From positions 1,054,001-1,118,000 of the forward strand of contig NZ_JAUQTA010000001.1 of assembly GCF_030580915.1 (NCBI RefSeq): DNA of 64,000 nucleotides, written 5' to 3'. The first letter of the stretch is position 1. Each line of letters begins with the position of its first letter. Made by a program: the position numbers and the translations under genes. This stretch comes from Nocardioides jiangxiensis. GTDB taxonomy: Bacteria > Actinomycetota > Actinomycetes > Propionibacteriales > Nocardioidaceae. Shown in pieces: positions 35,172 through 46,764 of the stretch. Under the pieces are notes generated by a model, which was not told the DNA's origin, made no database searches, and saw only the letters and a list, made by a program, of their open reading frames with translations.

Positions 35172-36032
35172 TCAGGCGAAGACGATGGTGCGGGCGCCCG
35201 TCATCAGGACGCGGTCCTCCGCGTGCCGGAGCACTGCCCGCGACAGGACCAGTCGCTCGACGTCGCGCCCGTGGGCGACCAGCTGCTCCGCGGTCCACGC
35301 GTGGTCGACGCGGGCGACGTCCTGCTCGATGATCGGGCCCTCGTCGAGGTCGGCCGTGACGTAGTGGGCGGTCGCGCCGATCAGCTTCACGCCGCGGGCG
35401 TGGGCCTGGTGGTAGGGCTTCGCGCCCTTGAAGCCGGGCAGGAACGAGTGGTGGATGTTGATGATCCGGCCGGGCAGCGCCGAGCAGAGGTCGTCGGAGA
35501 GGACCTGCATGTAGCGGGCCAGGACCACGAAGTCGACGGCGTGCTCCTCGACCAGCGCCAGCAGTGCGGCCTCCGCGGCGGGCTTCGACTCCTTCGTCAC
35601 CGGAATGTGCACGAAGGGGATGCCGTGGCGCTCGGCAATCGGCTGCAGGTCGGTGTGGTTGGAGACGATCACCGGGATGTCGACCGGGAGCTCGCCGTTC
35701 TCCCAGCGGTAGAGGAGGTCGAGCAGGCAGTGGTCCGCCTTGCTGACCATGAGCAGGACCCGTCGGCGCTGCGCCTCCGGGCGCAGGGTCACCGTCGTGT
35801 CGTACGCCGCGAGGGCGTCGTCGAGGAGGCTGCGGACCGCGCCGAGGTCGCTGATCGGCGAGTCGAACTCGGTGCGCATGCTGAAGGTGCCCGTGTCCGG
35901 GTCGGTGTACTGCTTGTTGTCGACGATGTTGCCCTGCGCCTGCACGACGCCTTCGGCGAAGGCGCGGATGATGCCGGGCTGGTCGGGGCAGCTGAGGGTC
36001 ATGACGTAGCGCTCCATGGTGCGCACCATCAT
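35172..36032 (-). CDS. purU: Formyltetrahydrofolate deformylase
   Basis: A 286-residue protein: N-terminal ACT domain (RYVMTLSCPDQPGIIRAFAEGV, about 8-80) and C-terminal formyltransferase-fold hydrolase domain with INIHHSFLPGFKGAKPYHQAH and the conserved aspartate in ADLDEGPIIEQDV. It hydrolyses 10-formyl-THF to formate and THF, balancing one-carbon pools. ATG 36032 overlaps the stop of the upstream iron-box gene by 4 bp; ATGs at 36029 and 36017 are in frame and 36017 would give a more standard N-terminus. The overlap implies it can be transcribed from the iron-box promoter. Confidence 0.9.
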   Translation of the reverse strand: MMVRTMERYVMTLSCPDQPGIIRAFAEGVVQAQGNIVDNKQYTDPDTGTFSMRTEFDSPISDLGAVRSLLDDALAAYDTTVTLRPEAQRRRVLLMVSKADHCLLDLLYRWENGELPVDIPVIVSNHTDLQPIAERHGIPFVHIPVTKESKPAAEAALLALVEEHAVDFVVLARYMQVLSDDLCSALPGRIINIHHSFLPGFKGAKPYHQAHARGVKLIGATAHYVTADLDEGPIIEQDVARVDHAWTAEQLVAHGRDVERLVLSRAVLRHAEDRVLMTGARTIVFA

Positions 36033-38692
36033 CGCCTACGTGCCTGCAGCCCTCTCAGGCGCGCCTCGCCCCGGGTCCAGGCCTGCCACGCCATGACACC
36101 GGCAAGGAGCGAGAGCAGCGTCGCGAGGAGAGGGATCCGGTTCTCCAGGTGCGGGTAGATCTCCCAGTGCACCAGGTAGATCCACATCGACGACGAGGCG
36201 AGCGCACCCACCAGCGGCACCACGCGCGCCGGCAGGCGGACCTCGCGCAGCCAGAGCAGCGCGAGCACGCCGAGGATCACGTAGGCGTCGCGGGCGGGCT
36301 CGTGCTCGAAGAAGCTCCAGACGCTGCCGACCGCGAGGGCGCTGACCACGAGGCGCTGCCGCACCGTCGCCGCACGTGCCGCAGCCCACCCCAGCGCGAA
36401 GAGGAAGAAGACGACCTGCGCGCGGTGCATGTAGTCACCGCCGCCGAGGTGCCATGCCCCGATCGTGAAGACGCGCTGGTCGAGGTCTCCCCCGGGCCAG
36501 GCACGCAGGCCGTAGCGCGGGACGAGGCCGACCAGCACGAGTGCCACGGGGAAGGCGAAGCGGTGACGGCGGCTGATCCGGTCGAGTGCGGGCACCGCGA
36601 GCAGCGCCGTCGCCGCGAGCATCAGCAGCAGCGCGACCTCGATGAACCAGTAGCGCCACTGCGGGTTGACCCAGTGGCCGGGACCGAGCAGCCAGTTGAG
36701 CAGGAGCACCTGCTTCCAGCCGACCCCCTGCTTGTACGTCGCCACCACGCCGATGACGAGGACGGCCGGGAGCGCGATCCGGCCGACGCTGCGGAGCGCG
36801 GCGCGGGTCCGCTCGGCACGGGGCAGGTCGACGTGGAACCGCGAGTAGTTGAACCCGAGGACGGCGAAGAGGGTGTGCGCGCCCCCGAGGAGGACGAAGA
36901 GGTTGGCATGGCTGCCGACGATCGTGACGATCGCCAGCGCCCGCAGCAGCACGGTCGTCTCGACCGTCCGGGCGGCGCCGAGCCACCGCGCGACGGGCCC
37001 GGCCGGCCGCGCCGCCAGGGACGCCCGGGCACTGGCCGGGAGGGCACAGCCGGCGAGCTCCTCGGCCGTGCGCGCGGTCCAGTCCGATGGCAGCGTCCCG
37101 AGCAGCGCCTCGAGCCGCAGCGACGCCTCGACGTAGGAGAGGGAGTCGCCGCCGAGCGACCGGAACGAGTCCCCGGGCCCTGCCGCCTTCCCGAGCAGGG
37201 CGGCGAAGAGCGCAGCCACACCGGCACCGTCGACGGTCTCCGGCTGCTCGGTCTCCGGCTGCTCGGTCTCCGGCTGCTCGTTCTCCGGAGGCGCGGCCTG
37301 GGCGACCAGCGCGCGGTAGTCGACCTTGCCGCTGGCCAGGCGCGGCAGGTCGACGGGCGTCAGCAGGCGTACGCCGGCCGGCGGCAGCCCCGTCGCCTCG
37401 CGCACCGCACGGAGGACGGCGGGCACGTCGACGCGGGCCGCGCCGGCGGCGACGGCGACCACGAGGTCGTCGCCCCCGTCGGCGACCGCGGCCACCACGC
37501 CGTTCGCCGCGAGAGCGCGCTCGACCCGGTCCAGGTCGACCCGCAGGCCGAAGACCTTCGCGATCCGTGCGCACCGCCCGACCACCTCGAAGAGGCCGTC
37601 GTCGCGCTGCCGGCCGAGGTCACCGGTCCGCAGCTCGTGGACGGTGCGGCCGAGGGCCAGCTCGGCGGTGGACGTGGCGTAGCCGAGCATGACGTTGTCC
37701 CCGCGGTAGACGAGCTCCCCGACGTCGGGGTCGCCGGTCAGGTCGGGCCGGGGCTCGATGGCGAGCGAGCCTCCCGGGATCGGGATGCCGATGGTGCCCG
37801 CGGCGTCGGCGGCGAGGTGCGGCGGCAGGAACGCCATGCGGGCGGTGGCCTCCGTCGCGCCGTACATGACCACGAGGTCCCAGCCGTGGGCCGCGCCGCG
37901 GGCGGCGTGCCGGCGTACCGCGTCGGGGGCCAGCCGACCTCCGGCCTGGGTGAGGTAGCGGAGGGTCGGCAGCTCGGTGCCGGTGAAGCCGAGGGACTCG
38001 AGCATGTCGAAGGTGTGGGGCACCCCCGGGAAGGTGGTGACACCGGCGGCCCGGGCCTCGTCCCAGAAGCGGGGGTCGGTGACCGAGCGCTCCGTGAGGT
38101 GCACCGTGGCGCCCGCCACGAGGTGGCTGTGCACCACGCTCAGGCCGTAGCAGTAGTGCACCGGGAGGGTGGTCGCGGCGACGTCGTCAGGGCGGATGCC
38201 GAGGTACTCGGCGATGGCCCGCGCGTTGGAGAGCAGGTTGTCGTGGCTGAGCCGCACCAGCTTCGGGCTGCCCGTGCTGCCGCTCGTGGAGAGGAGCAGC
38301 GCGAGGTCGGGGTGCAGGTCGTGCGCGCTGGTGGCGCGGTGCTCGACCAGCCCGGCCGGACCCCACTCCACGTCCGGGTCGTACGCCGCCGCCAGGCCGT
38401 CGCGGGCAGCGCCCGGACCGGTGAGCAGCACCGGCGAGCCCGCAGCCAGCGCCCCGAGCCAGGCGACGAGCGCGTCCGCGTCGTTGGCTGCTTCGAGGAG
38501 CAGCAGGCGTGGCGCGGGCCCGAGCCGCCGGGCGAACGCCGCGACACGCCCGGCCAGCTCGGCGTAGGTGATGCCGTCGGCCGTGCCGCTCCCCGTCAGC
38601 GCCGTGCAGTCGCCGTGGCGGGCGAGCAGGCGCACGAGCCCCGCGCCGCGGCGTTCGCCGGCCGGGAGGTCGTGGGGGTGGATGACGGACAC
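36029..38692 (-). CDS. Adenylation-carrier-acyltransferase-3 fusion, probably iron-regulated
   Basis: An 887-residue multidomain protein. Residues 1-465 are an ANL adenylation domain: STSGSTGSPK (135-144), YGATE (277-281), TGDLG (356-360) and A10 lysine 456 (LASGKVDYR). A PETEQ repeat linker (about 471-486) leads to a carrier protein (about 488-550) with phosphopantetheine site Ser517 in LGGDSLS. Residues about 575-880 form an acyltransferase-3 membrane domain of about 10 helices with His595 in IVGSHAN. It could load an acyl/aminoacyl group on its own carrier and move it to an acceptor at the membrane; acceptor unknown. GTG start 38692 lies nine bases after TAATAC, overlapped by a DtxR/IdeR-type iron box. 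It overlaps purU downstream. Confidence 0.8.
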   Translation of the reverse strand: MSVIHPHDLPAGERRGAGLVRLLARHGDCTALTGSGTADGITYAELAGRVAAFARRLGPAPRLLLLEAANDADALVAWLGALAAGSPVLLTGPGAARDGLAAAYDPDVEWGPAGLVEHRATSAHDLHPDLALLLSTSGSTGSPKLVRLSHDNLLSNARAIAEYLGIRPDDVAATTLPVHYCYGLSVVHSHLVAGATVHLTERSVTDPRFWDEARAAGVTTFPGVPHTFDMLESLGFTGTELPTLRYLTQAGGRLAPDAVRRHAARGAAHGWDLVVMYGATEATARMAFLPPHLAADAAGTIGIPIPGGSLAIEPRPDLTGDPDVGELVYRGDNVMLGYATSTAELALGRTVHELRTGDLGRQRDDGLFEVVGRCARIAKVFGLRVDLDRVERALAANGVVAAVADGGDDLVVAVAAGAARVDVPAVLRAVREATGLPPAGVRLLTPVDLPRLASGKVDYRALVAQAAPPENEQPETEQPETEQPETVDGAGVAALFAALLGKAAGPGDSFRSLGGDSLSYVEASLRLEALLGTLPSDWTARTAEELAGCALPASARASLAARPAGPVARWLGAARTVETTVLLRALAIVTIVGSHANLFVLLGGAHTLFAVLGFNYSRFHVDLPRAERTRAALRSVGRIALPAVLVIGVVATYKQGVGWKQVLLLNWLLGPGHWVNPQWRYWFIEVALLLMLAATALLAVPALDRISRRHRFAFPVALVLVGLVPRYGLRAWPGGDLDQRVFTIGAWHLGGGDYMHRAQVVFFLFALGWAAARAATVRQRLVVSALAVGSVWSFFEHEPARDAYVILGVLALLWLREVRLPARVVPLVGALASSSMWIYLVHWEIYPHLENRIPLLATLLSLLAGVMAWQAWTRGEARLRGLQARRR
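37235..37288. repeat. Coding tandem repeat, 15-bp unit (linker of the fusion protein)
   Basis: GGTCTCCGGCTGCTC occurs three times in tandem (37235-37249, 37250-37264, 37265-37279) plus a partial unit. On the minus strand it encodes the PETEQ linker repeats between adenylation and carrier domains; in-frame copy changes would alter linker length only. Confidence 0.8.
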
Positions 38693-38700
38693 CGGAGGAG

Positions 38701-38723
38701 TGTATTAGGCAAGCCTTACCTGT
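38701..38723 (-). promoter_or_regulatory. DtxR/IdeR-type iron box over the -10 of the fusion gene
   Basis: TTAGGCAAGCCTTACCTGT (38705-38723) matches the 19-bp consensus TWAGGTTAGSCTWACCTWA at 15 positions. On the minus strand it overlaps the start of the -10 TAATAC (38701-38706), nine bases before the GTG start at 38692. Iron-loaded DtxR/IdeR/DmdR should therefore repress this promoter; derepression when iron is scarce is inferred. Confidence 0.7.
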
Positions 38724-38775
38724 GTCGCCGCGATCTGCGTCACGCGGGTCACGTGCGATCTGGCAGACTCCCCGC

Positions 38776-39465
38776 ATGCAGACGATCGGTCTTGTCGGTG
38801 GCATGAGCTGGGAGTCCAGCGCGGAGTACTACAAGCTGCTCAACACGGGCGTCGAGTCACGCCTGGGTGGCCTGCACTCGGCCCGGACCGTGATGGCGTC
38901 GGTCGAGTTCGCGGAGCTCACCGCCCTCCAGGAGGAGGAGCGCTGGGACGACGTCGCGGAGATCCTCGCCAAGGCCGCGCGCGGCGTCGAGGCCGCCGGC
39001 GCCGACTTCCTCATGCTCTGCACCACGACGTTCCACCGCGTCGCCGAGCAGGTCGAGGCCGCGATCGACATCCCGCTGCTGCACCTGGGCGACGTCGTGG
39101 CCGAGGCCGTGAAGGCGCAGGGCATCGAGAAGGTCGCCCTGATCGGCACCATGTTCGCGATGTCGCGCACGTTCTTCACCGACCGGATCGCCTCCCACGG
39201 GCTCGAGGTGATCGTGCCGTCGTCCGAGTACCACGACCAGATCAACGCGGTCATCTACGACGAGCTGGTCCACGGCAAGGTCCTCGACTCCTCACGCAAG
39301 CGCGCGGTCAGGCTCGTCGAGCACCTGTGGGACCAGGGCGCCGGCGGCGTGATCCTCGGCTGCACCGAGCTCGAGCTGCTCGTGAAGCAGTCCGACGTCG
39401 ACCTCCCGATCTTCCCCTCGACCACGCTGCACGTGAGCGCCGCGCTCGACCGCGCGCTCGCCTGA
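38776..39465 (+). CDS. Aspartate/glutamate racemase family protein
   Basis: A 229-residue PLP-independent racemase. Both catalytic cysteines are present, in FLMLCTTTFHRVA (near residue 80) and ILGCTELELLV (near 196). The N-terminus TIGLVGGMSWESSAEYY and central KVALIGTMFAMSRTFFTDR match YgeA/RacX-type amino-acid racemases, which have broad or hydrophobic amino-acid specificity. ATG 38776 is six bases after CAGACT (38764-38769), a leaderless arrangement. D-amino acids could feed the cell envelope, but substrate is unknown. It is divergent from the iron-box gene. Confidence 0.87.
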   Translation: MQTIGLVGGMSWESSAEYYKLLNTGVESRLGGLHSARTVMASVEFAELTALQEEERWDDVAEILAKAARGVEAAGADFLMLCTTTFHRVAEQVEAAIDIPLLHLGDVVAEAVKAQGIEKVALIGTMFAMSRTFFTDRIASHGLEVIVPSSEYHDQINAVIYDELVHGKVLDSSRKRAVRLVEHLWDQGAGGVILGCTELELLVKQSDVDLPIFPSTTLHVSAALDRALA

Positions 39466-45342: not shown

Positions 45343-45489
45343 TTCCCCCGCAGGCCTGAGCCTGTCACCTCGCGTCCGAACAGGGGCGGCGAGGTGGTTG
45401 TGCTTGCCGTCGGCATTGCCGCCGGGCACACCGATGCCCCATGCTGTCCCTGCGGGAGCATGGGGCAGACCGCAGGGCAGGGGCTTCAG

Positions 45490-46764
45490 GTGGCAGACCA
45501 TCGGGTCGACGGCATCGAGGGCGTGCGTGGCATCGCAGCCCTCTCGGTCATGGGCGGTCACGTCCTCCTCTTCATGCTCGGCGGCGCGTTCGCCGGCTCG
45601 GCGCTCCTCGGCCCACTCGCCGTCGTGCTGCTCAACGGAGTGACGCTCTTCTTCGTCCTGTCCGGCTACCTGCTCTACCGGCCCTTCGTGTCGGCTGTGG
45701 TCGACGCACGCCCGTCTCCCCGCGTGACGACCTTCTACCGCAACCGCCTGCTCCGCATCTTCCCGGCGTACCTCGTGGTCTTCGCCGCCTCCGCCTTCGT
45801 GCTCGGCGTCGCGGTCGTGCAGACGACCGATCCGGCGGCACCGACGCGCATCGAGGAGCGGCTCGGCTACCTGACCGACCCGGTCCTCGTCCTGCTCAAC
45901 CTGACGCTGACGCAGGGCTACGTGCCCCGCGGCAACCTCACCGGCATCAACGTCTCCTGGTCACTGGTTCCGGAGCTCGCGTTCTACGCGGTCCTGCCCG
46001 TGCTGTACCTGATCGGGCGTGCCCTCAGCCGAGGCCGTCGTTCCCCGCTGGCCATGGCCGCGCCGGCTGTGCTGCTCCTGGTCGTCGGCGCCGTGGGCCG
46101 CCTGACCGCCCGGTCGATGCTACTCGCGGACGGCCCCGAGCACGTCGAGGGACGCCTCGACGGCTCGACCTGGGCCGGCGTCCTGACGCACTCCTTCCTC
46201 GGTGTGTGCGACCTGTTCGCGATCGGCATGCTGGTGGCCGTCGCCGCCGCTGCGTGCCAGCGCACCTCGCACCGACGAGGCGTCGCACTCCTGCGACTCG
46301 CCGTGGGAGCCGGAGTCCTCGTGGCCGCGCTGTCGACGTTCGCCCTCCGGCCGCTGTTGCTCGACCCTCCGGCGTGGGCCGCCACCTTCGCCGGCCTGCT
46401 CTTCCTGGTCGTGGCGCCCGGCGGCGGACGCCTGCGCCGACTGGCAGTGGCCGTGCTCGACTCGCGTCCGCTCACGCACCTCGGCGTGATCTCGTACAGC
46501 GTGTATCTGTGGCAGATGCCCGTTCTCCTGATGCTTCTCAAGCACTGGCCCGACGCGAAGTTCCACAGCGCGGGCGGTCTGCTCCTGGCCGCGGCCATGG
46601 TGCTCGTGCCCACGCTCCTGCTGAGCGAGCTCTCCTACCGGTTCGTGGAGAAGCCCGCACTCGACCGGAAGCGGCCGATGGTGGCGGTGTCCGGTCCTGT
46701 GGTGTCGGTGCCGGCGCAGCGGACGACCGAGCGAGCTCCTGCAGCCGAGGACGTCCGCGTCTGA
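45490..46764 (+). CDS. Acyltransferase-3 family membrane protein (OafA/YrhL-like), first copy
   Basis: A 424-residue protein with about 10 predicted helices. The family N-terminus is GIEGVRGIAALSVMGGHVLLFMLGG, with the catalytic histidine in SVMGGH, and FLSGYLLYRPF and YRNRLLRIFPAYLVVF (the R-rich acceptor loop) follow. ISYSVYLWQMPVLL marks the last helices. Such proteins O-acylate glycans or other envelope molecules. GTG 45490 has GGGGCTTCAG upstream; ATG 45460 is an alternative. The ECF-type promoter 200 bp upstream suggests envelope-stress control. Confidence 0.82.
   Translation: MADHRVDGIEGVRGIAALSVMGGHVLLFMLGGAFAGSALLGPLAVVLLNGVTLFFVLSGYLLYRPFVSAVVDARPSPRVTTFYRNRLLRIFPAYLVVFAASAFVLGVAVVQTTDPAAPTRIEERLGYLTDPVLVLLNLTLTQGYVPRGNLTGINVSWSLVPELAFYAVLPVLYLIGRALSRGRRSPLAMAAPAVLLLVVGAVGRLTARSMLLADGPEHVEGRLDGSTWAGVLTHSFLGVCDLFAIGMLVAVAAAACQRTSHRRGVALLRLAVGAGVLVAALSTFALRPLLLDPPAWAATFAGLLFLVVAPGGGRLRRLAVAVLDSRPLTHLGVISYSVYLWQMPVLLMLLKHWPDAKFHSAGGLLLAAAMVLVPTLLLSELSYRFVEKPALDRKRPMVAVSGPVVSVPAQRTTERAPAAEDVRV

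Follow-up and report, generated by a model that had tools for sequence, protein, structure and literature searches.

A 64,000-nucleotide stretch of the Nocardioides jiangxiensis genome (contig NZ_JAUQTA010000001.1, positions 1,054,001 to 1,118,000 of the forward strand; hereafter, the window) raises the question of what a single protein that joins an adenylation domain, a carrier domain and a membrane acyltransferase might do behind a predicted iron box. The initial annotation of this fusion, made from the sequence alone, described an enzyme that is produced under iron limitation, acylates or aminoacylates a surface or siderophore-like molecule, and is coupled to the adjoining purU gene. Comparison with related genomes revealed a partner that this annotation overlooked, the ferric-iron importer FbpABC. 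We propose, with a probability of about one half, that the fusion is a DtxR-controlled acyl-transfer machine resembling DltA-DltC-DltB and serving Fbp-type iron uptake. The domains, conserved catalytic residues, iron boxes, gene linkage and co-occurrence with FbpA are computed results.

Anatomy of the fusion protein

The fusion gene and its parts are as follows:

36029..38692, minus strand: adenylation-carrier-acyltransferase fusion gene, an open reading frame (ORF) of 887 residues with start GTG at 38692 and stop at 36029
37283..38692, minus strand: adenylation domain, codons 1-470, with A10 Lys456 and two acid-pocket residues placed by alignment to VinN, Cys181 and Arg285
37046..37222, minus strand: carrier domain, about codons 491-549, PF00550 above cut-off, attachment site Ser517
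36032..36961, minus strand: acyltransferase-3 (AT3) membrane domain, about codons 578-887, PF01757, with R584-x10-H595

Three Pfam families match the protein above their gathering scores: AMP-binding (PF00501; 145.6 bits, gathering score 29.9), PP-binding (PF00550; 24.1 and 20.8) and Acyl_transf_3 (PF01757; 47.3 and 31). The first part has the profile match, the A3, A5 and A10 motifs and the fold of ANL adenylation enzymes; the second combines the profile match with the attachment serine, at which phosphopantetheinylation is predicted; and the third has the profile match and, in its first helix, the R-x10-H motif described for AT3 proteins in the accessible part of PMC9833829. In alignment A1 (24 sequences, the fusion included), PP-binding was matched in 23 sequences and PF01757 in all 24, whereas Lys456, Ser517, R584 and H595 are invariant in all 59 sequences of alignment A3, which also includes the fusion. 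The three-domain anatomy and both active residues named by the initial annotation are thus borne out. Pfam detected no Condensation domain in the fusion, and no MBOAT match was listed for its membrane part at E up to 1. In the AF2 model (mean pLDDT 90.5, pTM 0.58), the single domains are predicted confidently and their mutual arrangement is not.

The arrangement had been called unusual. No description of the fusion or of its link to FbpABC was found in the open-licence literature of PubMed Central, subscription papers being outside that search; the architecture itself is not rare, since the fusion is present in 30 of 58 genomes of relatives and in 23 of 396 genomes drawn from the phylum (two of the 23, G226 and G335, matched in the adenylation part alone). 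The orthologues of N. phosphati and N. jejuensis share about 80% identity with it. In several genomes, it occurs as overlapping pieces, two in G012 (L080/L052) and G390 (L111/L114) and three in G023 (L081/L053), which suggests split genes, frameshifts or sequence errors.

Iron boxes and the FbpABC importer

The candidate regulatory site lies immediately upstream of the fusion gene:

38705..38723, minus strand: predicted DtxR/IdeR-type iron box, ACAGGTAAGGCTTGCCTAA, with its end 12 nt upstream of the GTG

Compared with TWAGGTWAGSCTWACCTWA, a looser form of the DtxR/IdeR consensus, ACAGGTAAGGCTTGCCTAA agrees at 16 of 19 positions. With the consensus TTAGGTTAGSCTAACCTAA, as given in an excerpt of PMC8464063, it agrees at 14 of 19 positions and not at the 15 of 19 reported initially; the box itself is confirmed and is the only site in the window that scores at least 14. 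In a promoter alignment of the window and four relatives, most of the box is kept and the flanks have diverged. A -10-like hexamer, TAATAC, overlaps the box 9 nt before the GTG, and a near-leaderless transcript of the fusion is plausible. The listed start of a divergent Asp/Glu racemase-family gene (38722-39465, plus strand) falls at the edge of the box, and a relative of this gene is also found near the fusion within loci L002, L003, L005 and L054.

For the comparison of orthologous loci, a box was defined as a site that matches at least 14 of 19 positions and lies between -200 and +60 relative to the estimated start of the fusion. A usable start was available in 41 loci (the window, L002-L005, L007-L014 and L054-L081); L006 (no start), L015 (a fragment) and L016-L023 (not fusions) were left out. 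A box was found at the fusion in 24 of the 41 loci, against 0.08 expected from dinucleotide shuffles of the same stretches, a figure that, like those of the Fisher tests below, overstates independence since the genomes compared are related. Of the remaining 17 loci, 14 have a boxed same-strand fbpA some 3.6 kb upstream, two show the same layout with a 13/19 site, and in one (L013) neither a box at the fusion nor a boxed upstream fbpA was found. Counting either position, 38 of 41 loci carry a box, so that the box is conserved in orthologues, distant ones included. With this 19-bp conserved promoter box, the fusion is assigned to a DtxR/IdeR regulon in which repressor binding and iron-dependent transcription are predicted. 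The phylum draw, made separately and used here without L105 and L110-L114 (truncated, fragmentary, adenylation-only or duplicate), has a boxed fusion in 11 of 18 loci (0.03 expected); L129-L131, scanned as well, duplicate sites that these counts include. The box footprint is therefore strong near the relatives of the window and weaker farther out. A first background set for the box scores was dropped, because most of the top-scoring "other genes" in it either were fbpA itself or had a promoter region in common with fbpA or the fusion.

The same pattern recurs in the genome of N. jiangxiensis itself. Only four sites in its 3.0 Mb fit TWAGGTWAGSCTWACCTWA with up to three mismatches (none fit a reversed control pattern), and they are located at (i) the fusion, (ii) fbpA-fbpB-fbpC, (iii) a FecCD-type importer and (iv) a ferritin unit. 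The second box directly precedes fbpA of an FbpABC unit (L087), in which the permease was identified by PF00528 and the FbpC ATPase, by eye, as the minus-strand ORF after fbpB. The boxed importer gene has periplasmic-binding and FecCD domains and is followed by a gene for an ATPase that, among the NCBIfam families, matches an enterobactin-uptake ATPase best, though below cut-off; the importer ORF as called starts before the box, and a lipoprotein-like start lies after it (by eye). The fourth box precedes a small ORF and then ferritin. This ORF (L088 6333-6692, minus strand) encodes 119 residues with a Cys-rich tail and has no Pfam or NCBIfam match. One DtxR-family gene was found, with an NCBIfam DtxR score of 343.8 (cut-off 290).

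An iron box at the fusion together with a boxed FecCD importer could point to siderophore tailoring, in which the fusion would acylate a siderophore that the cell produces or imports and the product would enter via FbpABC or the FecCD importer. The top Foldseek match of the whole model is likewise EntF, a siderophore synthetase module (E 5e-21, TM-score to the query 0.39), in searches that tested mainly residues 3-465, so that their lack of AT3 structures is no evidence. We consider such tailoring unlikely. In the own genome, a search limited to these two siderophore markers found neither IucA/IucC nor Condensation domains, and IucA/IucC is present independently of the fusion, in 14 of 30 fusion-bearing relatives and 17 of 28 others (p 0.31). 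As IucA/IucC does not track the fusion, the fusion was also rejected as a replacement for siderophores of this kind.

Three neighbours of the fusion recur: a binding protein resembling a lipoprotein, a long permease and an ATPase (the last by eye). A profile built from 11 neighbouring binding proteins retrieved solved ferric-iron binders as its first matches (8k7n, E 3e-136, then YfuA, SfuA, HitA and FbpA); matches of the own binding protein to the NCBIfam 2-aminoethylphosphonate and thiamine binders are far below the cut-offs. Besides the fusion, the neighbour clusters present in at least 11 loci comprise only fbp genes or ORFs antisense to them (by eye). Clusters c3 and c14, which by eye look antisense to fbpC and fbpB, respectively, were rejected as conserved partners. 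The gene order varies: fbpA may be found some 3.6 kb upstream in the same orientation, on the downstream side, or divergent from the fusion across a box common to both, and this variety suggests that the association is functional rather than accidental. In the own genome and G005, the fusion and fbpA are unlinked, yet both are boxed.

Co-occurrence supports the same partnership. Among the 58 relatives, FbpA is encoded in 30 of 30 genomes with the fusion and in 2 of 28 without it (G045 and G057), and among the 396 phylum genomes in 20 of 23 and 133 of 373, respectively, with p-values of 1.7e-14 and 1.3e-6 that are inflated by kinship. Within the genus, the counts are 24 of 24 and 0 of 13. For the relatives, G001 and G045, which matched in the adenylation domain alone, were not counted as having the fusion, and G012 and G023, which have it in pieces, were; in the phylum count, G249 (adenylation alone) was scored as lacking it, whereas G226 and G335 were scored as having it. 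Thus, the fusion goes with FbpA, and beyond close relatives FbpA mostly does without the fusion. The iron link claimed initially has become much firmer through the conservation of the box and the tie to FbpABC.

Activated acid and proposed mechanism

The solved protein closest in sequence to the adenylation part is VinN (3wvn, E 8e-28). In VinN, Asp230 is proposed to hold the amino group of methylaspartate, and Ser299 and Arg331 its carboxyl group (PMC7756342, consulted as an excerpt). With an assumed numbering offset of 16, under which all three VinN letters are correct, these positions correspond to Cys181, Ala250 and Arg285 in the fusion, each invariant in 59 of 59 sequences. Only the arginine of the VinN-type beta-amino-acid ligase signature is therefore kept. 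Since the aspartate is replaced by an invariant cysteine and the carboxylate-binding arginine is retained, the pocket is predicted to favour a non-amino acid, perhaps one bearing a second carboxylate. Among the NCBIfam matches listed, all below cut-off, are malonyl-CoA, o-succinylbenzoate and 2-oxoglutaryl-ACP ligases. The D-alanine ligase chains 7r27 and 3l8c match the adenylation domain weakly, and no DltA model is among the best 25 of 87 NCBIfam families for the fusion. Of the two activities suggested initially, acylation is thus favoured, and aminoacylation appears less likely because the aspartate that holds the amino group in VinN is an invariant cysteine here.

The local neighbour of the fusion bears on the same choice:

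35172..36032, minus strand: purU, PurU equivalog above the NCBIfam cut-off

The fusion ends at 36029 and purU starts at 36032, so that the overlap first described spans 4 bases, and the two genes are perhaps co-transcribed. This overlap, together with the presence of amino-acid-activating enzymes among the relatives of the adenylation domain, could indicate aminoacylation or formylation tied to PurU and formyl-tetrahydrofolate, which we regard as very improbable given the cysteine at the VinN Asp230 position and the fact that purU adjoins the fusion in just 3 of 61 loci, namely, the window and its two closest relatives (L002 and L003). The latter count rules out purU as a member of a conserved unit, and the proposed N-formyl coupling falls with it. 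Because purU is rarely adjacent, and IucA/IucC was not found in the own genome and does not track the fusion among the relatives, formyl chemistry and siderophores of the IucA/IucC kind are both excluded as the general partner.

We return to the acyl-transfer machine serving Fbp-type uptake, of which the acid, acceptor, product, role, DtxR binding and reaction order are the inferred parts. DtxR would repress the fusion gene, so that the protein would be made under iron shortage as a partner of FbpABC. The adenylation domain would activate a carboxylic acid, probably one with a second carboxylate and not an ordinary amino acid, and load it onto its own carrier. The phosphopantetheine arm would then bring the acyl group to the pore of the AT3 domain in the same protein, and this domain would pass it on to an acceptor outside the membrane. 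Acylation would yield either a surface group or a small released ligand, and this product would help Fe3+ to reach FbpA, a lipoprotein. In the current model of AT3 proteins, acyl-CoA is admitted into a pore and the acyl group is offered to an outside acceptor (PMC9833829, in the portion available); in the proposed scheme, the arm of the fused carrier would replace CoA as the acyl donor. A more specific version, in which the "siderophore-free" Fbp importer of these Actinobacteria is supplied by a ligand or surface trap of its own that the fusion makes from a di- or tricarboxylic acid without a nonribosomal peptide synthetase (NRPS) or IucA/IucC, is tentative, and we hold it possible at most.

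Some homologues show the parts in other arrangements. Two Moritella loci, L016 and L017, have separate but adjacent genes for an AT3-type protein and an adenylation-carrier protein (tested with Pfam for L017), the carrier being seen by alignment to the fusion (residues up to 546) and not by Pfam; this adjacency supports the view that AT3 and adenylation-carrier proteins work together. Directly upstream of the split genes in L017 (4426-6708), a Fur-like palindrome precedes a gene for a TonB-dependent receptor. We did not use this receptor as support, as it scores as a heme/hemoglobin receptor, lies 237 nt away, has a Fur-like palindrome of its own and is missing from the corresponding position in L016. 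A homologous adenylation protein is encoded in L018-L022, from Aeromonas except for L021, which is from Moritella. In L018, it belongs to an apparent nonulosonic-acid surface-glycan cluster beside LuxE/LuxC-like proteins (by eye), and L019, L020 and L022 share neighbour clusters, a context hinting at other uses for this type of adenylation. The window itself contains a second ORF (45394-46764, plus strand) that appears, by eye, to encode a stand-alone AT3 acyltransferase.

The Aeromonas context could also be taken for Dlt-like envelope remodelling under iron starvation, in which acylation of a wall or membrane glycan would alter the charge of the surface, keeping Fe3+ from being trapped or letting it pass to FbpA, with no ligand made. 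Mycobacterial SucT is an AT3 protein. It is reported to be associated with succinyl substituents on lipoarabinomannan (PMC10503756), AT3 proteins mostly acylate surface glycans (according to the part of PMC9558356 available), and in seven loci the gene after the fusion, or after its purU, resembles a glycosyltransferase gene (mshA, by eye). The coupling of the fusion to FbpA among the relatives is, however, more specific than a general charge change would need, and the widespread neighbour clusters offer only fbp genes and their antisense ORFs, although not every neighbour was identified. We find remodelling doubtful, if still worth considering.

Besides the kinship of the genomes, several observations weigh against the proposed service to Fbp-type uptake. 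In the phylum draw, 7 of 18 loci have no box scoring at least 14 at the fusion; four of them have an upstream same-strand fbpA, with a box of 15 or 16 in L116-L118 and of 12 in L115, and in the other three (L100, L104 and L109) no box was seen. Where fbpA is unlinked to the fusion in that draw, its box reaches 14 in three of nine cases (L123-L125) and scores 11 to 13 in six (L119-L122, L126 and L128). FbpA occurs without the fusion in 133 of 153 FbpA genomes of the phylum draw and in 2 of 32 of the relatives, and three phylum genomes with the fusion, all multi-contig assemblies, have no FbpA match (G298, G226 and G335). The Aeromonas surface-glycan cluster has no Fbp genes in view (by eye). 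The acid is not settled either: the NCBIfam matches listed also include families activating fatty acids, benzoate and amino acids, the structure matches of the adenylation domain include benzoate and feruloyl-CoA ligases, and the AT3 domain has no sequence match in PDB.

Comparison with known systems

The DltA-DltC-DltB system performs D-alanylation of teichoic acids. As in that system, an adenylation enzyme (an ANL domain in the fusion), a carrier and a membrane acyltransferase would pass an acyl group across the membrane, and the analogy drawn initially is supported. Unlike Dlt, the fusion is a single polypeptide, has AT3 (PF01757) and not MBOAT, lacks the amino-group aspartate, carries an iron box and is paired with FbpABC. 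The mechanism is thus Dlt-like as judged by anatomy, yet the protein is not a member of the Dlt system, since its membrane part is AT3.

Pls/PosA poly-amino-acid synthetases also fuse an adenylation-carrier module to a membrane part; their membrane domain differs from that of the fusion, their substrates are amino acids, and we know of no iron control of these enzymes. The fusion differs from NRPS siderophore synthetases in having no Condensation domain. VinN/HitB-type beta-amino-acid adenylation enzymes share with it the nearest solved sequence and Arg331 (Arg285), whereas Cys181 and Ala250 replace Asp230 and Ser299; VinN acts with a free-standing carrier in antibiotic synthesis (partial texts of PMC11284099 and PMC7756342). 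AT3 proteins such as OafA, OafB and SucT have the same PF01757 domain and invariant R-x10-H. Their commonest known fusions, as far as the available part of PMC9558356 describes them, are to SGNH and alanine racemase domains, whereas the acyl donor of the protein studied here would come in cis from the adenylation-carrier pair.

The importer resembles FbpABC, HitABC and YfuABC in its binding protein, which is linked to the fusion and belongs to their family, and in the iron box. It differs in its association with the fusion, found in 30 of the 32 FbpA genomes among the 58 relatives but in only 20 of 153 FbpA genomes of the phylum draw. In the usual picture, FbpABC importers take up bare or weakly held Fe3+, and no biosynthetic enzyme is, to our knowledge, assigned specifically to known systems of this type. 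The locus is of interest because, in the relatives studied, an enzyme gene is confined to genomes with this importer and shares its iron box, and because it offers a single gene whose product can be sought directly. If the proposed reading is true, Fbp-type uptake in these bacteria has an overlooked chemical step, and AT3 chemistry would come to include, besides CoA donors, a carrier that is part of the same polypeptide.

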